39,201 nt of DNA, from contig NZ_AJHH01000130.1 in NCBI RefSeq assembly GCF_000256565.1, positions 1 to 39,201 on the forward strand. The letters run 5' to 3'. Position numbers and translations under genes: made by a program. This document shows positions 33-39,201 of this stretch, piece by piece. The stretch is from Herbaspirillum lusitanum P6-12. Its GTDB lineage: Bacteria > Pseudomonadota > Gammaproteobacteria > Burkholderiales > Burkholderiaceae_D. The notes beneath the pieces were generated by a model. The model was given only the letters and a program-made list of their open reading frames with translations, was not told the DNA's origin and made no database searches. Every line of letters begins with the position of its first letter. Position 1 is the first letter of the stretch.

Positions 33-647
33 TCAGCGCGCCGGATGGAAGCCCTCGAACGCCACCTGCAACATGTGCTGCACGATATCTTCATTGCTCA
101 TCTTGCTGAAGCGCTGCAGGTATTCCACCGCCGGATCGCAGGTGCGGGCGTAATAACTGAACAGGATGACGTCGCTCGGCAGCGCCGCGTCGAGTTCGCC
201 GTTCTTCTGCGCGGCCAGCACCAGCTTTTCGATCTGGCCGTTGAGCTTGAGCACGCGCGTCACATACTTGAGATTGCGCATGAGCATGTCGCGCACATGC
301 GCGCTGGTCGACGGCAGGAACGGCAAGCCGCCGTCCAGCCGCACGCGCAGGGCCCATTCCAGCAACGCCGCCAGCTTGCTTTTCGGGCTGAGCGCGTCAT
401 CGAGTTGCGCCAGATAATCCACCGCGCCGTCGATCAGGCGGATCAGCGCTTCGCCCACCAGGTCTTCCTTCGATTTGAAATGCTTGTACAGGCTGGGTTT
501 GGAAATCCCTACCGCGCCGGCGACGTCGTCCATGGTCATCAGGTCGTAACCCTTGGCGCCCAGTACTGACGTGGCCGCATCGAGGATGGCGTTCTCGCGC
601 AGCTTGAAGGCCTGGTCCTTGAAACTTAATTTTCCAAAAATACTCAT
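33..647 (-). CDS. TetR/AcrR-family transcriptional regulator
   Basis: This 204-residue protein has the size and layout of a TetR-family repressor. The N-terminal helix-turn-helix is at about residues 39-64 (DDVAGAVGISKPSLYKHF, then K-S-K-E-D-L). The C-terminal half is helical and variable, as expected for ligand binding and dimerisation. It is transcribed away from the lipid-type operon starting at 792, with about 145 bp between them. Three ATTGGTAG repeats at 20-bp steps lie in that gap, and the first overlaps its own ATG. It is therefore probably autoregulated and controls the operon. The ligand is unknown; a fatty acid or acyl derivative is my inference from the neighbours. The family call is secure, the target assignment moderate. 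Confidence 0.9.
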   Translation of the reverse strand: MSIFGKLSFKDQAFKLRENAILDAATSVLGAKGYDLMTMDDVAGAVGISKPSLYKHFKSKEDLVGEALIRLIDGAVDYLAQLDDALSPKSKLAALLEWALRVRLDGGLPFLPSTSAHVRDMLMRNLKYVTRVLKLNGQIEKLVLAAQKNGELDAALPSDVILFSYYARTCDPAVEYLQRFSKMSNEDIVQHMLQVAFEGFHPAR

Positions 648-693
648 TGGTAGCTTTAGTTACTAATTGGTAGATTTTATTTTGTATTGGTAG
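641..693. promoter_or_regulatory. Three ATTGGTAG repeats at 20-bp steps, probable TetR operators
   Basis: ATTGGTAG occurs at 646-653, 666-673 and 686-693, exactly 20 bp (about two helical turns) apart. Upstream bases are partly shared: TACTCATTGGTA at 641 and TACTAATTGGTA at 661, the latter almost a perfect 12-bp palindrome around AATT. The array lies between the divergent tetR gene and the operon and covers the tetR start codon. Binding by the adjacent regulator is inferred. Confidence 0.6.
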
Positions 694-791
694 TAATCTT
701 AGCACCGAACTGGCAAAACCAGCAAAACCAGCAGCGCGCGAATGCCGCGAACATGGCACATACACTACAAAAACGACAGGGAAGGCAGGCA

Positions 792-2075
792 ATGACGCAA
801 GCCAGGCAAAAAATCGCAATAATCGGGGCCGGCATATCCGGCCTTGCAAGCGCATATTTCCTTGCCCGCCGGCACGACGTCGTGGTGTACGAGGCCGGCG
901 GCTATATCGGCGGCCACGCCAATACCGTGGATGCGACGCTGGAAGGCCGGACCTTTCCGGTCGATACCGGATTCCTGGTCTTCAACGAAGCCACTTATCC
1001 GAATCTGATCGCATTGCTCGACGAACTCGGCGTTGACAGTTATGCCACCGACATGTCGTTTGGCGTGTCGCTGGACGGCGGCCGATTCGAATGGGCCGGC
1101 ACCAGTCTCGATACCGTCTTTGCTCAGCGCCGCAGAGTGATGTCGCCGGCTTTCCTGGGCATGTTGCGCGACATCCTGCGCTTCAATCGCGCGGCGGAAA
1201 GCAATCTCGCCGCCAGCCTTGTTTCACCCCTATCGCTGGAACAGCTGCTTGCGGCAGGCAGCTACGGCGCCATGTTCCGCGATGCTTATCTGCTGCCGAT
1301 GGCAGCGGCAATCTGGTCGAGCGCGCCGGCGGATATTTTGCAATTCCCTGCGGCCACCTTCCTGCGTTTCTGCCTCAATCACGGGCTGTTGCAGGTCAAT
1401 GATCGGCCGCAATGGCGAACGGTCAAAGGCGGCGCCCGCGAATACGTCAGGAAGATCACGGCGACGTTGCCGGCGGTGCGGCTCAACACGAAAGTAGTGG
1501 ACGTGCTGCGCGACGACGCGGGGGTAACCGTTCGCACGCATGACGGGTCCGAACGGTTCGACAGCGTGGTGTTCGCCACGCATGCCCCGGATACCTTGCG
1601 CATGCTCACCGACGCCGATGTCCAGGAACGCGCCCTGTTGTCGGCAGTACGGTATCAGGCCAACACCGCCTACTTGCATACCGATCTGTCGCTGATGCCG
1701 CAGCGGCGCAAGGTGTGGTCTTCCTGGAATTACCTGGGCGCGGCTTCTGCGGCGCAGGACGGCGCACGCGCGGTGTGCGTCAGCTACTGGCTCAATCAAT
1801 TGCAAGCCTTGCCGTGCAAGAGCGCGGTGATGGTGACGCTCAATCCGTTCTCGCCGCCTGCCGCCGACAAGACGATTGCCAGGTTCGACTACGATCATCC
1901 GATATTCGATCAGGCGGCCATTTCTGCGCAACACACCTTGGCTTCGATCCAGGGAAAACGGCGCACCTGGTTCGCAGGCGCCTGGACCGGTTATGGCTTC
2001 CATGAAGACGGGTTGAAATCGGCTCTGCGCGTAGCAGCCGATTTCAGTGCCGCACCGTCATGGGCGAAGGTTTGA
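792..2075 (+). CDS. FAD-dependent oxidoreductase, COG2907 amine-oxidase-like
   Basis: The 427-residue protein starts with a Rossmann dinucleotide motif (IAIIGAGISGLASAYFLA, GAGISG at residues 12-17) and an acidic residue after the second strand (VVVYEAGG), typical of FAD-binding. The C-terminus has the flavin-contact motif WFAGAWTGYGFHEDGL. This architecture matches COG2907, amine-oxidase or desaturase-like flavoproteins that commonly sit beside DUF1365 and CFA-like genes. I chose ATG 792 because AGGGAAGG precedes it at good spacing; an upstream in-frame TTG has no ribosome site and falls in the operator repeats. It is the first gene of the operon, and its stop lies just before the next start. 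A role in oxidising or desaturating a membrane acyl chain is inferred from context; the substrate is unproven. Confidence 0.85.
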   Translation: MTQARQKIAIIGAGISGLASAYFLARRHDVVVYEAGGYIGGHANTVDATLEGRTFPVDTGFLVFNEATYPNLIALLDELGVDSYATDMSFGVSLDGGRFEWAGTSLDTVFAQRRRVMSPAFLGMLRDILRFNRAAESNLAASLVSPLSLEQLLAAGSYGAMFRDAYLLPMAAAIWSSAPADILQFPAATFLRFCLNHGLLQVNDRPQWRTVKGGAREYVRKITATLPAVRLNTKVVDVLRDDAGVTVRTHDGSERFDSVVFATHAPDTLRMLTDADVQERALLSAVRYQANTAYLHTDLSLMPQRRKVWSSWNYLGAASAAQDGARAVCVSYWLNQLQALPCKSAVMVTLNPFSPPAADKTIARFDYDHPIFDQAAISAQHTLASIQGKRRTWFAGAWTGYGFHEDGLKSALRVAADFSAAPSWAKV

Positions 2076-2077
2076 GC

Positions 2078-2896
2078 ATGACGAACCCGCGCGCACCGGC
2101 CTATATCGTTCGCGGCCAGGTCATGCACGAGCGGCTGCGCCCGGCGCAGCACCGCTTCGTCTACCCGGTGTTTTATGTGCGCCTGAATCTGGCGCGACTG
2201 TCCGATGCGAACAATGCCTGGTTCGGCGTCGATCGCCTGCGGCTGATGTCGCTGAGGACACGCGATTACGGTCCGCGCGACGGCAGCGACCTGGACGGCT
2301 GGATGCGCGCGCAACTGGCGGATGCAGGTTTGCCTTGCGATGGTGAAATCTGGCTGCAGACCTTTCCGCGACTGTTCGGCTTCGTGTTCAACCCGGTCAG
2401 TTTCTGGCTGTGCCATGACAGCGCCGGCGCCTTGCGCGCCGTGCTGGCCGAAGTGAACAACACCTTCGGCGAAACGCATCGTTATTTGCTGGCCGACAGC
2501 GAACGCAAGGCGATTACGCCCGACACGCGCCTGGTCTGCGCCAAGGCCATGCATGTGTCGCCGTTTTGCGAAGTGCGTGGCAGCTACCGGTTTCGCTTTC
2601 GCGACACGGCAACGACCACGTTGATCGGTATCGATTATGACGACGGCGCCGACAACCCGGACAGCGCCGGCGTATTGATCCACACCACCGTCGGCGGCCG
2701 CTTGCAGGCAATGACCTCAGCGGCGGCGTTGCGCGCGCTGCTGACGCAACCCTTCCTGACCTTCGGCATCGTCGCAAAAATCCATTGGCAGGCCTGGAAA
2801 CTCTGGTGCAAGCGCGTGCCGTTTTTTCGCAAACCCGTCCGTCCGACGGACAGCGCGGTTGCGACCGCCAATTTCAACAAGGAGATGTCACCGTGA
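2078..2896 (+). CDS. DUF1365 family protein
   Basis: A 272-residue protein of the DUF1365 (COG3496) family. Recognisable family stretches are YIVRGQVMHERLRPAQHRF near the N-terminus, LFGFVFNPVSFWLCHD, and EVNNTFGETHRYLL. The biochemical role is not established. The family is found between COG2907 flavoproteins and CFA-like methyltransferases, so it probably acts on the same lipid substrate. ATG 2078 is preferred over in-frame ATG 2060 because GAAGG (about 2065-2070) gives good spacing only to 2078. The start lies two bases after the previous stop, and the stop overlaps the next GTG (GTGA), so translational coupling is likely. No signal peptide or clear membrane helix is visible. Confidence 0.88.
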   Translation: MTNPRAPAYIVRGQVMHERLRPAQHRFVYPVFYVRLNLARLSDANNAWFGVDRLRLMSLRTRDYGPRDGSDLDGWMRAQLADAGLPCDGEIWLQTFPRLFGFVFNPVSFWLCHDSAGALRAVLAEVNNTFGETHRYLLADSERKAITPDTRLVCAKAMHVSPFCEVRGSYRFRFRDTATTTLIGIDYDDGADNPDSAGVLIHTTVGGRLQAMTSAAALRALLTQPFLTFGIVAKIHWQAWKLWCKRVPFFRKPVRPTDSAVATANFNKEMSP

Positions 2897-4155
2897 ACCC
2901 GACCGAGATGAAGCACTTCAGCGCACCCATGCCCGAAGCTGCGGCGTCCACATCATCGCGTCCCGCCGACGCCTTCACTTCCGCCCCGCCGGCTACGCGC
3001 CTGTTCCTGCGCTTGCTCAACTGCTTCTCGCACGGCCACTTGCAGCTGACTACGCCGCATGGCAATACGCTGACCTTCGGCGACTTGCATCAGCCGCCCA
3101 GCGCGCACATGGTCATTCGCGACTGGCGCGCCTGCGCCCGCATGCTGCAATCGGGGGACATCGGTTTCGCCGAAAGTTATGCCGCCGGCTGGATTGATAC
3201 GCCCGACCTGAGCGCGTTGCTGCGCCTTTGCCTGCGCAACCAGGCGGAACTGGAGCGCATGATGTTCGGCGGCAAGCTGGCCGGATTGTGGTATCGCCTG
3301 CGGCATCTGATGCGCGCCAATACGCGCGCCGGCAGCCGCAAGAACATCCACGCGCATTACGACATCGGCAATGCCTTCTACCATCAGTGGCTCGATGACA
3401 GCTGGACGTATTCGAGCGCGATCTTCGACGGCGACCACGGGCAAAGCCTGGAGGCGGCGCAAGCGCGCAAATATCAGCGCATCATCGACCAGCTCGGCTT
3501 GCAGGCCGGCGACCACGTGCTGGAAATTGGCTGCGGCTGGGGCGGCTTTGCGGAACACGCGGCATCGCTTGGCATCCGCGTGCACGGCGTTACCATCTCG
3601 GCCGCGCAGTTGCAGGTGGCGCAGCAGCGCCTCGCCGAGCGCGGCCTCGATCATCTGGCCCGGCTTGAGCTGTGCGACTACCGTGACCTGAAAGGCGAGT
3701 ACGACGCGGTGGTGTCGATCGAGATGTTCGAGGCCGTCGGCGAGCGCTTCTGGCAACAGTATTTCGATACCGTGTCGGCACGCCTGAAGAAGGGCGGCCG
3801 CGCCATGATCCAGTCGATCACGATTGCCGAGCAATATTTTGAACGCTACCGCAGCACGTCCGACTTCATCCGCCAGTACATCTTCCCGGGCGGCATGCTG
3901 CCGAGTCCGGAGCGCTTCTGCGCCAAGGCGCGCCAGGCCGGCCTGCAGACGCTCGATCAATACGGTTTCGGTCGCGATTATGCGGAGACGCTGCGCCGTT
4001 GGAACGCCTCCTTCCTGCACGCCCGCGATGCCATTCGGAAGCAGGGATTCGACGAGCGCTTCATGCGGCTGTGGCAACTCTACTATGCCTATTGCGAAGT
4101 AGGTTTTGACGAGGAGCGCACCGATGTCATTCAGTTCATGTTGCAGAAAAACTGA
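2893..4155 (+). CDS. CFA-synthase-like SAM-dependent lipid methyltransferase
   Basis: This 420-residue protein belongs to the cyclopropane-fatty-acyl-phospholipid synthase family (COG2230). The SAM-binding motif is VLEIGCGWGGFA (around residues 209-220), followed by VTISAAQ, IEMFEAVG (E280) and YIFPGGMLPS. By remembered alignment with E. coli Cfa, the active-site E239 and Y317 are kept (E280, Y363). C139 is Ser175 and H266 is Gln307, and the family FEHVG is FEAVG. Loss of two bicarbonate-pocket residues suggests methyl transfer without cyclopropanation, as in methyl-branched or furan fatty-acid pathways; this is inference. The GTG start has AAGGAG eight bases upstream and overlaps the previous stop. 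An additional housekeeping Cfa elsewhere in the genome is likely but not visible here. Confidence 0.85.
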   Translation: MNPTEMKHFSAPMPEAAASTSSRPADAFTSAPPATRLFLRLLNCFSHGHLQLTTPHGNTLTFGDLHQPPSAHMVIRDWRACARMLQSGDIGFAESYAAGWIDTPDLSALLRLCLRNQAELERMMFGGKLAGLWYRLRHLMRANTRAGSRKNIHAHYDIGNAFYHQWLDDSWTYSSAIFDGDHGQSLEAAQARKYQRIIDQLGLQAGDHVLEIGCGWGGFAEHAASLGIRVHGVTISAAQLQVAQQRLAERGLDHLARLELCDYRDLKGEYDAVVSIEMFEAVGERFWQQYFDTVSARLKKGGRAMIQSITIAEQYFERYRSTSDFIRQYIFPGGMLPSPERFCAKARQAGLQTLDQYGFGRDYAETLRRWNASFLHARDAIRKQGFDERFMRLWQLYYAYCEVGFDEERTDVIQFMLQKN

Positions 4156-4180
4156 CCGCAAAAAAGCGGAGGCCCGGACC

Positions 4181-4743
4181 GTGTTCGCCGGAGCAGCACT
4201 CCTGCGCGCAATGTTCTGCACGGGCTTTGCCGTACGCTGCTTGCTGGTCGCTGCGCTGTCGGCGGGGCCTGCACAGGCCGCGAGCTGGCGCGACGATCTG
4301 CCTCAGGCGCACCTGCAGGGTAGTGCGGGACTGCGCTGGTTCGGATTGAAGGTCTATGACGCAGCCCTATGGAGCCGGCCGCGGCGCCGTTCGATCCCGC
4401 GCAGCCGTTTGCGCTGGAGCTGACCTATCAACGCAGCATCAGCCGCACGCGCATCGTGCAGACCAGCATCGATGAGATCCGCCGTCTGTCCGAAGGCCGT
4501 TACAGCGACCAACAATTGCAGCGCTGGGAAGCCGACATGGCGCGTGCTTTCACCGACGTCAATGAAGGCGATCAGCTTACCGGCGTCTACCTGCCGGGCA
4601 TTGGTTGTCGCTTCTACAGCCGCACGCGCTTGTTGGCGGAGGTGCGCGATGCGGAATTCGCCCGTGCTTTCTTCGCCATCTGGCTCGATCCGCGCACCAG
4701 GGACACGCAATTGCGCAATCGTCTGCTGGGGGCCGAAAAATGA
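4181..4743 (+). pseudogene. Chalcone-isomerase-like exported protein, frameshifted
   Basis: Two overlapping frames together make one protein. The first encodes a signal peptide (core MFCTGFAVRCLLVAALSAGPAQA) and SWRDDLPQAHLQGSAGLRWF-GLKVYDAALW. The second continues as PAAAPFDPAQPFALELTY through to GAEK. They resemble the periplasmic chalcone-isomerase-like family (Chalcone_3), which shares the fold of fatty-acid-binding proteins. The break is at about 4370-4380, in a GGCCGCGGCGCC stretch, and adding one base restores a single frame. I chose GTG 4181 because GGAGG (4168-4172) sits eight bases upstream; ATG 4211 is an alternative. The 3' end overlaps the MFS start. As written the product ends early, so this is either a pseudogene or a sequencing error. 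Confidence 0.75.
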
Positions 4744-6020
4744 AAAACGAGAGCCGGCTCCGCTACTTCGCCTACGGCCTGCTGGGTCTGCCGCTGGCGA
4801 TGTCGGCTTTGCCCGTCTATATCCAGGCGCCGCTGTACTACAGCTCCTATCTTGGCGCGACGCTGGCAGGCACAGGCTGGGTGTTGTTCCTGGCGCGAGT
4901 CGTCGATACCGTGCAAGACCCTTGGCTTGGACAGTGCATCGACAAATTGCAGGGTACTCGTTTGCACTTGTGGATGATGCTCGCCGGCGCGTTGCTGGCG
5001 CTGGCGTTCTTCGGCATCTGGTTGCCGCCGGCGAGCGTGCGCGTTTCCGGCGCCTATCTTCTGGCGTGGCTGGGCGTCATGCTGGTCGTTGCCTACACTG
5101 CGCACAGCATGCTCAATATTGCTTACCTGGCGTGGGGTGCGCGCCTGTCGGAAGATGCCGGCGGATTGCTCGGGGCTTCCGCCTTGCGTGAGTTGATGGG
5201 TTTGCTGGGAGCCGTGCTGGCCAGCGTGATTCCGGGTGTCATCATGGCGAGCGGCGCCCGCAGTCAAGCTGGTTTTGCGCTGTATTCGGGCGCCTTCGCC
5301 GTCGCAGTCGCGGTATCGCTGGCAGCCTTGCTGTGGCTGGCGCCACGCTGGAACAAGGTGGCGGCGCACGCCGGCGGCTGGCGCAGCGCCGTGGCGACGA
5401 TGCGATCCAATCCTGGATTTCGACGGTTGCTATTGCCGTATTTCCTGAATGCCGTGTCGGTAGCGATCCCGGCCACGCTGGCGCTGTTTTTCATCAACGA
5501 CAGATTGCAGGCGCCGGATTATGCCGGCGGCTTTCTCGCGACGTATTTCATCTCCACGGCGATCGGCTTGCCGCTCTGGGTGGTTGCCGCCCAGCGCGTC
5601 GGCGTATTGCCGGCCTGGCGCATCGGCATGCTGCTGGCGGTCCTTGCCTTCGGCGGTACAGTGTTGCTAGGGGCGGGTGACGTTCTGTTGTACGGAGCGG
5701 TGTGCGTCGCAGCGGGTCTGGCGCTGGGCGCCGACCTGGCCCTGCCGCCGGTATTGCTGGCAAACGTGATCGGCAGCAACGAAAGTACTGCAGCCTATTA
5801 CGGCGTCTGGACATTGCTGGCGAAGCTGGCGCTGGCGTTCTCGGGCCTTGCGTTGCCGCTGCTGGCGTTGTTCGACTATCAGCCCGGCATGAGCGGCAAT
5901 GCCGCACTGGGCTGGACGTATGCCGCCGTTCCCTGCGTGTTCAAACTGATGGCCTTGCTGTTGCTGAGAACGGCGCCGGCATCCGATTCCCTTGCTGTTT
6001 TACCGGAGACCTCCTCATGA
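4740..6020 (+). CDS. MFS transporter of the GPH/MelB-like (MFS_2) type
   Basis: The 426-residue product is an integral membrane protein with about twelve hydrophobic segments. The early motif DTVQDPWLGQCID (about residues 56-68) is the Asp-Pro-Gly-Asp signature of the glycoside-pentoside-hexuronide / MFS_2 group. That group includes sugar symporters and also lipid carriers such as LplT- and MFSD2-like proteins. The start overlaps the preceding stop (ATGA), and the stop overlaps the next ATG, so it is coupled within the operon. The partners suggest an acyl or lysophospholipid substrate rather than a sugar, but nothing in the sequence proves it. No frameshift or truncation is seen. Confidence 0.82.
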   Translation: MKNESRLRYFAYGLLGLPLAMSALPVYIQAPLYYSSYLGATLAGTGWVLFLARVVDTVQDPWLGQCIDKLQGTRLHLWMMLAGALLALAFFGIWLPPASVRVSGAYLLAWLGVMLVVAYTAHSMLNIAYLAWGARLSEDAGGLLGASALRELMGLLGAVLASVIPGVIMASGARSQAGFALYSGAFAVAVAVSLAALLWLAPRWNKVAAHAGGWRSAVATMRSNPGFRRLLLPYFLNAVSVAIPATLALFFINDRLQAPDYAGGFLATYFISTAIGLPLWVVAAQRVGVLPAWRIGMLLAVLAFGGTVLLGAGDVLLYGAVCVAAGLALGADLALPPVLLANVIGSNESTAAYYGVWTLLAKLALAFSGLALPLLALFDYQPGMSGNAALGWTYAAVPCVFKLMALLLLRTAPASDSLAVLPETSS

Positions 6021-6562
6021 AAATCATCCGCCGTTTTACAGCGCTGTCGCTGCCCGTCGTATTGCTTCTATTGCTCGGCGCTTGCGCCGGCACCGACGTC
6101 TCGCACTATGCCAAGAACCAACCGGTGTTCGACCTGGTGCAATTCTTCAGCGGCAAGACCGAGGCATGGGGCATGTTCCAGAAACGCGGCGGCGAGGTCG
6201 TCAAGCGTTTTCATGTCGAGATCACCGGCAGCGAGCAGGGCGGCAAGCTGACGCTGGACGAGCGTTTTCGCTATGACGACGGCACTACGCAACAGCGCGT
6301 CTGGACCCTGACCAGGCAAGCTGACGGCAGCTGGCGCGGCACCGCCGGCGACGTCGTCGGCGAAGCGGTCGGCCATGCCGCAGGCAATGCGCTGAACTGG
6401 CGTTACACCTTGTTGCTGCCGGTCGACGGCAAGACTTATGAAATGCACATGGACGACTGGATGTACCAGATGGACCGGCACACCTTGATCAACCGCACCA
6501 GCATGAGCAAGTTCGGGCTGGAAGTCGGACAGGTGACGCTGTTCTTTCGCAAGCAGGATTGA
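6017..6562 (+). CDS. DUF3833 family lipoprotein
   Basis: A 181-residue protein with a lipoprotein signal: charged MKIIRR, a hydrophobic stretch and the lipobox LGAC with C23 as the likely lipidated cysteine. The body matches DUF3833 (FFSGKTEAWGMFQKRGGEV, then DDGTTQQRVWTL and MDDWMYQMDRHTLINRTSMS). It looks like a lipocalin-like beta-rich domain, though that is an impression from sequence character only. ATG 6017 overlaps the MFS stop and has GGAG eight bases upstream. Family members recur in clusters with SDR, MFS and CFA-like genes. A membrane-anchored lipid-binding or chaperone role would fit; the biochemical function is unknown. Confidence 0.85.
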   Translation: MKIIRRFTALSLPVVLLLLLGACAGTDVSHYAKNQPVFDLVQFFSGKTEAWGMFQKRGGEVVKRFHVEITGSEQGGKLTLDERFRYDDGTTQQRVWTLTRQADGSWRGTAGDVVGEAVGHAAGNALNWRYTLLLPVDGKTYEMHMDDWMYQMDRHTLINRTSMSKFGLEVGQVTLFFRKQD

Positions 6563-6573
6563 CGGAGACCACG

Positions 6574-7356
6574 ATGTTTAATCCCATGAACAAGCCGGTG
6601 CACGACTGGACCGGCAAGCGCATCTGGCTGATCGGCGCCTCCAGCGGCATCGGCGCCGAACTGGCGCGCCAGGCGCTGGCGGCAGGCGCCCGCGTGGCGC
6701 TGTCGGCGCGCCGCGCGGAGGTGCTGGAAGAAGTGGCCGGCGCCCATCCGGAGGCCTTCATCGCGCCGCTGGACGTGCTCTGCCACGATGCCTGGCGCGA
6801 CCAGCACGCGCGCATCGTCGAAGCCTTCGGCGGCGTGGACCTGCTGATCTTTTGCGCCGCCAGGTATCGTCCTGAACGCAGCTGGGAAGTGCAGGAAGAC
6901 GAGGCCGAGCACACCATCCGCACCAACCTGGCCAGCGTCTATTCGGCGCTGGGCGCAGCGCTGCCGGATATGCTGGCGCGCGGCAGCGGCGGCATCGCAT
7001 TGGTGGCCAGCGTGGCCGGGTACATGGGGCTGCCCAATGCCAGCGTCTACGGTCCCGGCAAGGCGGCCCTGATCAATCTGGCGGAAATCCTCTACAGCGA
7101 CCTGCGCAGCAAGGGCATCAATGTCTATCTCATCAATCCCGGTTTCGTGAAGACCGGACTGACGGAGAAAAACGACTTCGCCATGCCGGCCATGCAAACG
7201 CCTGCTGCCGCCGCCGTCGAAATCTGGAAAGGCATCGCCGAAGGGCGCTTTGAAATCCATTTCCCGCGTCGCTTTACGCGTATCCTGAAGCTGATCCAGA
7301 TGTTGCCGTATCGCTGGCGCTTTGCCTTGTTCCACCGCTTCCTGCACATGACATGA
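6574..7356 (+). CDS. Short-chain dehydrogenase/reductase
   Basis: A 260-residue classical SDR. The cofactor motif GASSGIG is at residues 21-27. The catalytic residues are S146 (VASVAGY), Y159 and K163 (YGPGK), with the family N in RTNLAS. An NAD(P)(H)-dependent oxidation or reduction of a hydroxyl/carbonyl group is expected. The C-terminus has basic and hydrophobic stretches (IHFPRRFTRILKLIQMLPY), which could associate with the membrane. ATG 6574 has CGGAGA just upstream; an earlier TTG at 6559 overlaps the previous stop but is less well placed. The stop overlaps the next gene by four bases. It probably acts on an oxygenated acyl intermediate, which is inference from operon content. Confidence 0.88.
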   Translation: MFNPMNKPVHDWTGKRIWLIGASSGIGAELARQALAAGARVALSARRAEVLEEVAGAHPEAFIAPLDVLCHDAWRDQHARIVEAFGGVDLLIFCAARYRPERSWEVQEDEAEHTIRTNLASVYSALGAALPDMLARGSGGIALVASVAGYMGLPNASVYGPGKAALINLAEILYSDLRSKGINVYLINPGFVKTGLTEKNDFAMPAMQTPAAAAVEIWKGIAEGRFEIHFPRRFTRILKLIQMLPYRWRFALFHRFLHMT

Positions 7357-7811
7357 CCGAGATGAGATTAAATGACCGACTCGATGCGCTGGCCGAATGG
7401 TACGTGACGCTGACGCGACAGAGCGTGCGCCATATCGGCCAGTTCTATGCGCCCGAAGTGCACTTCAAGGATCCGTTCAACGACATCCGCGGCATCGCCG
7501 CGATGATCGCCGTATATGAACACATGTTCGACACGACCGACCATCCGCATTTCATCATCCATGAGCGCATCGTCGCCGGCGATCAGGCCTTCATCACCTG
7601 GGTCTTCCATTTCGGGCTCAAGGGAAAGCACTACAGCATCGCCGGCGGCACGCATCTGAAGTTCAACCAGGAAGGCCTGGTCGTCCTGCATCGCGACTAC
7701 TGGGATGCGGCGGAAGAACTGTTCCAGAAATTACCGGTGATCGGCGGATTGATACGCTGGCTGCGCAGATTGTTCGAGACCAGGATCGACCTTACGGCAG
7801 GCCGCGGATGA
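7353..7811 (+). CDS. NTF2/SnoaL-like domain protein
   Basis: A 152-residue protein with the pattern of the NTF2/SnoaL fold: WYVTLTRQSVRHIGQFYAPE near the start, VHFKDPFNDIRG, HFIIHERIVAGDQAFITWVF in the middle and VVLHRDYWDAAEELF near the end. Members are small cone-shaped enzymes or binding proteins for hydrophobic ligands, including isomerases and cyclases. It is the last gene of the operon, starting inside the SDR stop (ATGA). Its partners and fold suggest a lipid or cyclised-lipid ligand, which is inference. No signal peptide is seen, so it probably acts in the cytoplasm. Confidence 0.85.
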   Translation: MTEMRLNDRLDALAEWYVTLTRQSVRHIGQFYAPEVHFKDPFNDIRGIAAMIAVYEHMFDTTDHPHFIIHERIVAGDQAFITWVFHFGLKGKHYSIAGGTHLKFNQEGLVVLHRDYWDAAEELFQKLPVIGGLIRWLRRLFETRIDLTAGRG

Positions 7812-9707: not shown

Positions 9708-9712
9708 TCGCC

Positions 9713-9822
9713 GGTCATTGGGGAGTAGTCGCCTTCCGCCCTGAGGAGGGGCTTATGTCAACATACTTGGTCCACACGACCATGGCATAAGCGGTCCTAA
9801 AAGCTTGACAAGACCTTTGACC
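9713..9822 (+). ncRNA. yybP-ykoY manganese riboswitch
   Basis: The element contains both hallmark segments of the yybP-ykoY family: GGGGAGTAG near the 5' end (9720-9728) and GTCAACATACTT in the middle (about 9757-9768). It closes with ACAAGACCTTTGACC. GGTCA (9713-9717) pairs with TGACC (9818-9822) to form the P1 stem. The family binds Mn2+ and is commonly found before manganese exporters, which is exactly what follows here. Sequence and context agree well; exact ends are approximate. Confidence 0.88.
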
Positions 9823-9870
9823 ACGTTGCCTCCGGAATGGCCGGGGAGAGGCGTGGTCAATCGTATTTTT
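9817..9870 (+). terminator. Riboswitch expression platform, intrinsic terminator
   Basis: TTGACCAC (9817-9824) pairs with GTGGTCAA (9853-9860), extended by GCCTC (9828-9832) with GAGGC (9848-9852), and is followed by TCGTATTTTT. The 5' arm re-uses the 3' strand of riboswitch P1, so the two structures exclude each other. Mn2+-bound P1 should prevent the terminator and switch the exporter on. The logic is inferred from base pairing. Confidence 0.75.
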
Positions 9871-9891
9871 GTCCGGCCATGGAGACCCCAA

Positions 9892-36604: not shown

Positions 36605-37539
36605 TTATTCGCCGTTCATCGCCTTGCGCTGGCGATCGATGAATTCCTTGAGCGTGTCGATGCCGCGCAATTGCAGGATGGTGTTGCGCACCGCCGCTTC
36701 CAGCAGCACCGCGATATTGCGGCCGCCACCGGGATCACCACTTTGCGGATCGGCAAACCGAGCACGTCTTCGAATTGCGCATCGAGCGGCAAGCGCTCGT
36801 AATTTTCTTCCAGCGTGCTGCGGCGGACCAGATGCACGATGAGTTTCAGGCGCATTTTACGGCGCACCGCTGTTTCGCCGAAGATGGCCTTGATGTCGAG
36901 CAAGCCAAGGCCGCGCACTTCCAGCAAGTTTTGCAGCAGCGGCGGGCAACGGCCCTCGATCATGTTGGGTGCAATGCGCGCAAATTCGACCGCGTCATCG
37001 GCCACCAGGCCGTGGCTGCGCGAAATCAGTTCCAGGCCCAGCTCACTTTTGCCCAAGCCGGATTCACCGGTGATCAACACGCCCACGCCAAGCACGTCCA
37101 TGAAGACGCCGTGCATGGTGATCTGCTGCGCCAGTTTCTTCGACAGGTAGACGCGCAGGTAATCGATGACTTGCGCGGCCGGCAGCGGCGTGGAGAACAG
37201 CGGAATGTTTTTTTCGTCGCAGATGGCCAGGATGTCGGGCGGGGTCGCCAGGCCTTGCGCGATGATGAAGGCGGGCGGTTCGCCGGCGACCAGTTCCGCG
37301 GTCTGGTAGGCGCGCGAGGTGTTCGAAAGACGTTGGTAGTACTCGGTTTCCTGGTGGCCGAAGACCTGGATGCGGCCGGGGTGGATCAGGTTCAAGTGAC
37401 CGACCTGGTCGGCGGCGGAGGCGGCGTCGCCGGAGATCAGGCGTTCACCGCCAGGGAAGCCGGCAAACCAGCCCAGTTGCAACGATTCGCGATTTTCTTC
37501 ATACAGTTGCTGTATCGATAACGCGGTAAATGAAGGCAT
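36605..37539 (-). pseudogene. hprK: HPr kinase/phosphorylase, 3' frameshift
   Basis: An HprK that would be about 312 residues if repaired. HprK phosphorylates a serine of HPr-type proteins in the PTS. The N-terminal domain is intact ([18 protein letters not shown]), as are Walker [15 protein letters not shown] and the [11 protein letters not shown] signature. Near 36720-36735 the frame changes after VVIPVAA. The correct tail [16 protein letters not shown] and onward to KAMNGE, ending at 36605, lies in another frame. The site reads GCGGCCGC where GCGGCCGGCCGC would be expected, consistent with a four-base loss. As written the last 40 or so residues are wrong and the frame runs to about 36616. 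A sequencing compression is a plausible alternative. Confidence 0.85.
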
Positions 37540-38280: not shown

Positions 38281-38877
38281 TTACATCTCGATGCGACCGA
38301 AAACCAGCAATACGTCGCCGCTGTTCTTGTTCGACGACAGGCGCGGCACGTAGGCAAACATCACCTTGGCTTTCTTGGTGCCGATCGAAGCCAGCGGCAA
38401 CGGCACCGGGAACGGCACGCCGCCGAAATAATCCTGCCGGCTCATCAGCATCGCGGTGCCGCCGATGCCCAGTTCCAGCGGCGTATGACCAATCGGATAA
38501 ACCCATTCATAGGCATAGCCGGCCATGATTTGCGGGTGGCGATGTGAATCCTTGAGCACGAAACCGTACAACGACTCGTCGTTGCCGCGTTCGTTGCGCA
38601 TGGTCTTGCCGTAGCCGAGGCCCCAGGCGTGCTCGTTCAGTTGGTCGAGCTTTTCCTTGGTATAGGTGCTGCGGCCGTGATGCGCCAATCCCGATACGTA
38701 AATCGCATCGTCTCCCTTGTCGACGATTTCCGAGGCGTGATCCTTGATGGATTGCCACCAGCTGAATTCGTCGCTCTGTTGCGCCATGGCGGGAAGCGAA
38801 GTCGCGGCGCAGCCGAGCGCAAAGGCGCCGGCAAGCAAGGTGCGGGAGGAGCGAAAGGAGGAAAGTAATTGGCTCAT
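38281..38877 (-). CDS. pagP: Lipid A palmitoyltransferase PagP
   Basis: A 198-residue outer-membrane beta-barrel enzyme that transfers palmitate from phospholipid to lipid A. The signal peptide ends at LPAMA before QQSDEF. The catalytic residues by family alignment are H67 (AHHGRSTY), D110 and S111 (FVLKDSHRHP). The barrel continues with AGYAYEWVYP, PVPLPLASIGTKKA and YVPRLSSNKNSGDVLLVFGR. ATG 38877 is chosen to start the signal peptide, but the ribosome site is weak. It lies upstream of ptsN in the same direction with 176 bp between, in which no gene is recognised. Confidence 0.88.
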   Translation of the reverse strand: MSQLLSSFRSSRTLLAGAFALGCAATSLPAMAQQSDEFSWWQSIKDHASEIVDKGDDAIYVSGLAHHGRSTYTKEKLDQLNEHAWGLGYGKTMRNERGNDESLYGFVLKDSHRHPQIMAGYAYEWVYPIGHTPLELGIGGTAMLMSRQDYFGGVPFPVPLPLASIGTKKAKVMFAYVPRLSSNKNSGDVLLVFGRIEM

Positions 38878-39201
38878 ATTTTTATTGGCTATTTCTACTA
38901 TTTGTTGATGGTGTCGACAGACGATTGCTGCCGGCAGGAAACTGACCAGATTTCTGCGCCGTAAAAAATCGACGTAGCGATGCCCTGGACGAGCATTGAG
39001 CATTGCCTGGCGATGGAGTCGAGAGTGAGACCGGATCATTGCACAAGAAGTTTTATGCAATATCGATAAATCGTTTCAAAATGTTGCGGCCGAAATGAGC
39101 GGAAACGCCGCCTGCCGCGAGGGCAGGGCGTTACGCGGCAGGCTCCGCGATGTAATGGTTTTGTAACAAAGTCCCTCGATAATAATGGAATAAAGCAGTC
39201 A
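38878..39201. other. Gene-free right end with the pagP upstream region
   Basis: No convincing coding sequence is seen. The left half should hold the pagP promoter (minus strand). The last 50 bases carry a Pho-box-like pair and an AT-rich -10-like stretch pointing right. Confidence 0.5.
39151..39186 (+). promoter_or_regulatory. Pho-box-like repeat and candidate promoter
   Basis: TGTAAT (39151-39156) and TGTAAC (39162-39167) repeat at 11-bp spacing, as in PhoB sites, and ATAATAAT (39179-39186) follows as a possible -10. It points to a gene beyond the right edge. The match is partial. Confidence 0.3.

Follow-up and report, generated by a model that had tools for sequence, protein, structure and literature searches.

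What the enzymes of an operon beside a divergent tetR gene in Herbaspirillum lusitanum P6-12 make, and what switches them on, are the two questions raised by this locus. The operon and its tetR occupy positions 33-7811 of the 39,201 nt stretch of DNA analyzed here (the window), which is part of a 4.9 Mb draft genome of 820 contigs that is 96% complete. We consider it likely that the operon converts acyl chains of existing phospholipids to furan fatty acids, with the divergent TetR as its switch. The pathway itself, a bacterial route from membrane fatty acids to antioxidant furan fatty acids, is known, and what appears to be new is its local control by a TetR and its predicted operator. In a search of mainly open-access literature, the papers listed included none on a TetR regulator of this operon or on furan fatty acids in Herbaspirillum. 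The regulator, the intergenic elements and the three core genes are as follows.

33-647, minus strand: tetR, divergent TetR-family regulator (TetR_N PF00440, E 1.6e-16)
641-652, no strand: predicted operator O1 (TACTCATTGGTA), overlapping the tetR start codon
661-672, no strand: predicted operator O2 (TACTAATTGGTA), 20 bp from O1
683-703, no strand: third conserved intergenic block (GGTAGTAATCTTAGCAC), downstream of O2
792-2075, plus strand: ufaD homologue, putative FAD-dependent acyl-chain desaturase (PF01593, E 7.5e-22; gene order)
2078-2896, plus strand: ufaO homologue, DUF1365, putative O2-dependent furan-forming enzyme (PF07103, E 1.2e-77)
2893-4155, plus strand: ufaM homologue, Cfa-like S-adenosylmethionine (SAM) methyltransferase of the CMAS family (PF02353, E 1.9e-82)

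Core enzymes of the operon

In Rhodobacter sphaeroides, the SAM methylase UfaM (RSP2144) methylates cis-vaccenate in phospholipid, the desaturase UfaD (RSP1091) acts on the UfaM product, and the DUF1365 protein UfaO (RSP1090) forms the furan using O2; in Rhodopseudomonas palustris, RPA2571, RPA2570 and RPA2569 are UfaD, UfaO and UfaM (PMC7380195). By analogy, the Herbaspirillum UfaM would methylate the vaccenoyl double bond with SAM and release a methyl-branched alkene, with no cyclopropane closure. UfaD would desaturate this alkene to a methylated conjugated diene, and UfaO would add an O2-derived oxygen atom to the diene to give the furan. The published work covers these steps in the two reference species; for Herbaspirillum we infer them from sequence homology, the order of the genes and the residues of the active site.

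Several findings support the identification of the operon as this known pathway with a ufaD-ufaO-ufaM core. A UfaD-family gene stands beside a DUF1365 ufaO, the methyltransferase is set apart from Cfa by its residues and by score bands, and the D-O-M order is that of R. palustris. The furan-fatty-acid correspondence that an earlier note on this DNA had suspected is borne out for the core, both by families and by order (PMC7380195). By sequence, UfaD is closest among solved structures to the amine oxidase LkcE (E 7e-42), with other amine oxidases well behind.

We compared neighborhoods in 111 distinct loci: the best 80 of the matches listed on titled contigs plus 34 stretches from relatives, minus three duplicates. 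The 34 stretches come from 36 other DUF1365-positive relatives, with G011 and G028 left out. UfaD adjoins in 110 of the 111 loci and ufaM in 108, conservation far above chance; of the four exceptions, three sit at a contig end or close to one and the fourth is L100. A plasmid record from Mesorhizobium (L156), with a partial DUF1365 by a photolyase piece, was kept out of the analysis. Among the records that carry ufa loci are metagenome-assembled genomes titled Klebsiella pneumoniae (L149) and Bordetella parapertussis (L137). Their titles look doubtful, and the ufaO of L149 is identical to a copy in a genome of the window's order.

The bicarbonate ligands of E. coli Cfa are Glu239, His266 and Tyr317 (PMC11387697). 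UfaM of the window shares with E. coli Cfa the CMAS family, the SAM methyltransferase assignment and the residues at Glu239 and Tyr317 (Glu280 and Tyr363 in its own numbering), but Gln307 replaces His266, so that the ligand set is incomplete, and Ala and Ser replace His240 and Cys139. We aligned 134 Cfa-like proteins from the loci, 110 of them operon copies. The operon copies have Ala at the His240 position in all 109 that could be aligned there and Gln at the His266 position in all 108, and retain Glu239 and Tyr317 wherever alignable. The 24 non-operon proteins divide into 5 with Ala/Gln and 19 with His/His. The five are UfaM proteins encoded at other named plasmid loci (Rhizobium, Acinetobacter, Pseudoalteromonas, Burkholderia and Azospirillum); among the 19, all Cfa proteins or paralogues, are the E. 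coli enzyme and two further strong CMAS proteins of the window's genome.

The Ala/Gln pair recurs in 87 of 87 further UfaM-type proteins (27 from DUF1365-picked loci across the phylum, and 60 alphaproteobacterial best matches to the window UfaM), and 8 of 8 lower-scoring Cfa proteins from two alphaproteobacterial families have the full Cfa residue set. In those two families, among the matches listed, scores to the window UfaM fall into bands of at least 293 bits and below 219 bits, with one fragment at 270. One of the 229 rows in the larger alignment reads A-HRAA; it is presumably a cut contig-end fragment (L057), which has only gaps in the 134-protein alignment. Those NCBIfam cyclopropane and mycolic models that match the window protein do so at scores under their curated cut-offs. 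We gave up Cys139 as a candidate marker: among operon copies the position is Ser, Ala or Gly, and in four cases Cys, and Ser or Ala is found in some other paralogues too. Loss of a bicarbonate ligand would fit methyl transfer without ring closure, a mechanism that we propose from these residues; the main text of PMC7380195 never uses the word bicarbonate. The Ala/Gln marker may separate UfaM from cyclopropane synthases, which general models match alike.

The TetR regulator and its predicted operators

The earlier note had placed an adjacent TetR in control of the operon instead of an ECF/ChrR pair. In support of this, the TetR is conserved and co-occurs with the operon, a predicted operator footprint is present, and the genome has no match to ChrR. 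The window tetR encodes a TetR_N domain and faces a predicted palindromic operator in the shared promoter region, features of a local repressor. The TetR is adjacent and divergent in 41 of the 111 loci. In a survey of 34 genomes of the genus, the window's own included, a TetR orthologue (at least 80% identity) is present in 21 of the 23 operon-positive genomes, as scored by DUF1365, and in 0 of the 11 operon-negative ones (Fisher p 2.7e-7, uncorrected for descent; one of the 11 is only 63% complete). The TetR match of G047 is on a different contig from its operon and was excluded from the operon-linked count.

The predicted operator facing tetR consists of two palindromic copies of TACTNATNRGTA spaced by 20-21 bp. 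In the window these copies are O1 and O2, and the tandem occurs only once in the genome. Across 42 TetR loci (the 41 distinct loci and the window), the tetR-ufaD interval contains at least one TAC[CT]NATN[AG]GTA site in 38 and two in 31, spaced by 20 bp in 26 loci and by 21 bp in 5; shuffled controls gave a mean of 0.01 loci. The pattern was absent within 2.5 kb upstream of ufaD in all 47 loci with a LitR-type regulator (one a duplicate). The third block, at 683-703, is conserved in many TetR loci and is perhaps part of the ufaD promoter. A terminator scan gave nothing useful. We propose that the TetR binds the two palindromes, which lie two helical turns apart, and represses both tetR and the operon genes, and that it leaves the DNA on a lipid-derived signal, for which acyl-CoA or an oxidized lipid are candidates.

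Alignment of 20 TetR sequences (19 of the 22 homologues from named loci and the window protein; L080 and L081 were left out for a stop codon at the end, and L078 as distant) gave a mean column identity of 77% and one invariant Cys, which is the sole Cys of the window TetR and lies in RTCDPAV. The structure model has a predicted local distance difference test (pLDDT) score of 89. Its nearest Foldseek match is B. subtilis FadR (E 4.1e-7), with FasR also among the top matches, and VIA-align placed DarR, PvrA and FadR at Z 15.6-16.2 (root-mean-square deviation, rmsd, 3.2-3.9 over 180-188 residues). FadR of B. subtilis, FasR of M. tuberculosis and PvrA of P. aeruginosa are acyl-CoA-responsive TetRs, and they are among the top structural matches to the window TetR at 15-22% identity. 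This suggests a lipid-derived ligand; because TetR folds resemble each other, the structural likeness need not mean a shared ligand, and DarR, which by its entry titles binds nucleotides, matches equally well.

Other loci have other regulators. Of the 111, 39 have a TetR only, 46 a LitR-type regulator only, 2 both and 6 an ECF/anti-sigma pair; 18 have none that we recognized, some of these being stretches that end early. Forty of the 46 LitR-type matches reach at least 120 bits and the rest are weak or distant (e.g., L037, L039, L041 and L121). A representative has MerR and B12-binding domains. In many related betaproteobacteria the operon comes instead with a MerR-B12 (LitR-type) regulator and another predicted twin palindrome: TTGTCNWRNACAA, allowing one mismatch, occurs at least once in 36 of 40 LitR-type loci and twice in 31, and in 0 of 42 TetR loci. 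As the motif was read off the same loci, these counts are a description and not an independent test. Twin palindromes of this kind lie upstream of the LitR-type gene in L042, L103, L108 and others, and in a number of LitR-type loci the regulator is separated from ufaD by folE2 or glutathione peroxidase genes. The box of the light-inducible Pseudomonas LitR/PplR cluster, T(G/A)TACA-N12-TGTA(C/T)A (PMC9758184), was found in 0 of 45 LitR-type loci (TRTACA-N12-TGTAYA, at most one mismatch, 1.5 kb upstream of ufaD), and for this reason we rejected the idea that the Pseudomonas motif carries over to them.

In a quickly built UfaD tree (110 rows, some long branches), the TetR label needs 5 changes, compared with 33.9 in shuffles, and well-supported branches require at least 2 changes. 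This suggests that the regulator was exchanged on no more than a few occasions and was inherited thereafter. Two loci, L096 (Rugamonas fusca) and L102 (Janthinobacterium), combine a TetR next to the operon with a LitR-type match at a distance of about 5-6 kb, perhaps a transitional state. The window's genome has no ChrR match at E 0.001 and no LitR-type match at 1e-15; its one B12-binding domain lies within a 1279-residue frame. No full-length LitR-type match was found in the genus at 1e-15, where G023 has one match of 74 residues. The earlier note's remark that no photolyase is present holds for the window, as far as we looked, but not for the genome, which encodes one on a different contig from the operon.

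The TetR probably stands in for the LitR-type regulator or ECF/anti-sigma pair of related operons. A more specific scenario, for which our confidence falls clearly short of even, is that this betaproteobacterial lineage swapped a B12/light regulator and its operator for the single-cysteine TetR, so that furan synthesis would answer to a lipid signal and not to light or singlet oxygen. In that scenario the signal might be an acyl thioester, or an electrophilic or oxidized lipid that reacts with the invariant Cys.

Accessory genes and alternative explanations

Downstream of the core, the operon continues with five accessory genes.

4211-4743, plus strand: chalcone-isomerase-like exported protein gene (chi), frameshifted (PF16036 Chalcone_3, fragment 4360-4743, E 1.9e-13)
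4740-6020, plus strand: GPH-type MFS carrier, MFS_2 (PF13347, E 5.2e-48)
6017-6562, plus strand: DUF3833 lipoprotein (PF12915, E 2.3e-70; lipobox by eye)
6559-7356, plus strand: SDR, short-chain dehydrogenase/reductase (PF00106, E 3.8e-39)
7353-7811, plus strand: SnoaL_2/NTF2-like protein (PF12680, E 4.1e-17)

The order after the divergent tetR is therefore ufaD, ufaO, ufaM, chi, MFS, DUF3833, SDR and NTF2-like, eight co-directional genes at 792-7811, and open reading frames and Pfam matches agree with the families and single direction named in the earlier note. That note gave the genes overlapping stops and starts, which is accurate for the four-base overlaps at ufaO/ufaM, chi/MFS, MFS/DUF3833, DUF3833/SDR and SDR/NTF2, but not for ufaM/chi, where about 55 bases lie between the genes. 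It also began the operon at 641, a position in the tetR start codon region and the first base of O1; coding begins at about 792. Its chalcone-isomerase-like gene belongs to the family it named, but the frame is split in two in the window (N part 4211-4423, C part 4360-4743; the N fragment alone has no Pfam match). The window differs from its two nearest relatives here by a net two bases, and chi is an open frame in all 16 relatives with a match among the 34 stretches. A gene read by eye as hprK (36616-37539, minus strand) is also frameshifted, near its 3′ end, with its conserved C-terminus in another frame. Given this second frameshift in the same window and the open frame in relatives, an assembly error is the likeliest cause, and we rejected a real or programmed event.

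The earlier note had read all eight genes as one acyl-chain pathway; this holds for the core three, but a part for the accessory genes in acyl-chain chemistry is less well supported. They probably handle modified lipids or oxidation products and not furan synthesis. One version of this, compatible with the furan pathway and in our estimate somewhat short of an even chance, is that they degrade, export or recycle furan lipids, with the MFS as a lysophospholipid- or fatty-acid-type carrier and the exported chalcone-isomerase-fold protein as its acceptor. Where 6 kb of downstream sequence was available (95 loci), chi occurs in 58, MFS in 58, DUF3833 in 66, SDR in 71 and NTF2 in 69. Chi and MFS occur together in 52, alone in 6 and 6, and neither in 31; SDR and NTF2 occur together in 68, one alone in 4, and neither in 23. 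This co-occurrence suggests two modules, chi-MFS and SDR-NTF2, which would suit such roles, as would the dispensability for synthesis of three R. sphaeroides genes, RSP1087-1089. The co-occurrence figures, not adjusted for relatedness, are inflated by it and by joint loss of all the tail genes.

It is improbable that the operon ends at a methylated or conjugated chain, with UfaO a diverged DUF1365 protein that has another reaction. In favor of this, identity among aligned UfaO homologues falls to 30% and the UfaO cofactor and mechanism are described as unknown (PMC7380195); the DUF1365 match covers nearly the full model, however, the alignment (55 of the 80 named loci used) has 38 invariant columns in 56 sequences, and ufaO is fixed beside ufaD in the survey. 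The UfaO model (pLDDT 89) had no Foldseek match at E 0.001, and VIA-align found two matches at Z 7.5, nitrobindin (rmsd 4.2 over 135 residues) and OlmO (4.0 over 129), a weak likeness to a nitrobindin/FABP-like barrel. Because Z 7.5 falls within the tool's range for models without a clear relative, we propose neither a heme nor another cofactor. A second DUF1365 type, with an NTPWNER motif and its own FAD and Cfa-like partners, occurs in L037, L039 and L041, where the UfaM-like protein keeps Cys139.

That the TetR is a mere neighbor, with the operon under a different regulator (for instance, an unlinked ECF sigma factor), seems distinctly improbable: TetR genes are common and no promoter was resolved, but the adjacent, divergent arrangement comes with matched predicted operators, the TetR tracks the operon across the genus, and the genome has no ChrR match. 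Very improbable is that UfaM makes ordinary cyclopropane acids while its neighbors modify other lipids, for although Pfam and NCBIfam cyclopropane synthase models match it, it falls below the NCBIfam cut-offs, lacks His266 and His240, is fixed beside ufaD and ufaO, and shares its genome with two strong CMAS proteins that keep the Cfa residues.

Several points weigh against furan synthesis under TetR repression, which we nevertheless prefer. The furan product is predicted from sequence comparison, and the match to the R. sphaeroides and R. palustris proteins is by family and order and not by alignment to the named proteins. Two of the 23 operon-positive genomes of the genus (G013 and G023) lack the TetR; their operons are diverged, about 46-55% identical in the core. 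The exact operator pattern is missing in 4 of the 42 TetR loci and is a single site in seven. Conservation of the left half of O1 may reflect coding alone, as O1 overlaps the tetR start codon, an overlap of which O2 is free. A sigma-70 promoter scan found no promoter, and the TetR may be an activator. Expression in E. coli involves a host with its own cfa gene, which bears on the cyclic acids seen there. Such cyclic fatty acids appeared alongside the methyl alkene with UfaM of Halomonas (PMC12089945). Finally, single deletion of RSP1087, RSP1088 or RSP1089 in R. sphaeroides produced no detectable change in the fatty-acid profile (PMC7380195).

Elsewhere in the window, a homologue of the lipid A acyltransferase PagP (Pfam; 38281-39060, minus strand), about 30 kb from the operon, is a second lipid-modifying gene. 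A yybP-ykoY Mn2+ riboswitch (9708-9887, 100 bits) lies at a membrane-protein gene, whose product we take to resemble the UPF0016/GDT1 family.

Comparison with known systems

If the preferred reading, furan synthesis with a TetR switch, is right, genes for furan fatty acid synthesis are placed in Herbaspirillum and many other betaproteobacteria, and a one-regulator, two-operator system would offer a way to find which signal, besides light or singlet oxygen, calls for furan lipids. The roles of the chalcone-isomerase-like, DUF3833, MFS and NTF2-like neighbors would also become testable in one operon.

Herbaspirillum shares the three Ufa families with R. sphaeroides and R. palustris, and the D-O-M order with the latter. 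Three R. sphaeroides genes that follow ufaD-ufaO, RSP1089, RSP1088 and RSP1087 (402, 186 and 245 residues; PMC7380195), are probable counterparts of MFS, DUF3833 and SDR, as judged from sizes and from the orders on a Paracoccus plasmid (FAD-DUF1365-MFS-SDR) and an Azospirillum plasmid (DUF3833 after ufaM). Herbaspirillum differs from this system in having one contiguous operon that includes ufaM, extra chalcone-isomerase-like and NTF2-like genes, and an adjoining TetR with no ChrR match in the genome. In Halomonas sp. YLGW01, which is from a different bacterial group, ufaD-ufaO-ufaM are consecutive as in Herbaspirillum, and its UfaM in E. coli yielded 11-methyloctadec-12-enoate (PMC12089945). 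The Pseudomonas PplR cluster resembles the Herbaspirillum operon in having UfaM, an FAD oxidoreductase, an SDR, unannotated genes and a local regulator; it contains a photolyase, and its regulator is a MerR-type LitR with light induction, whereas Herbaspirillum has a TetR and a different predicted operator (PMC9758184).

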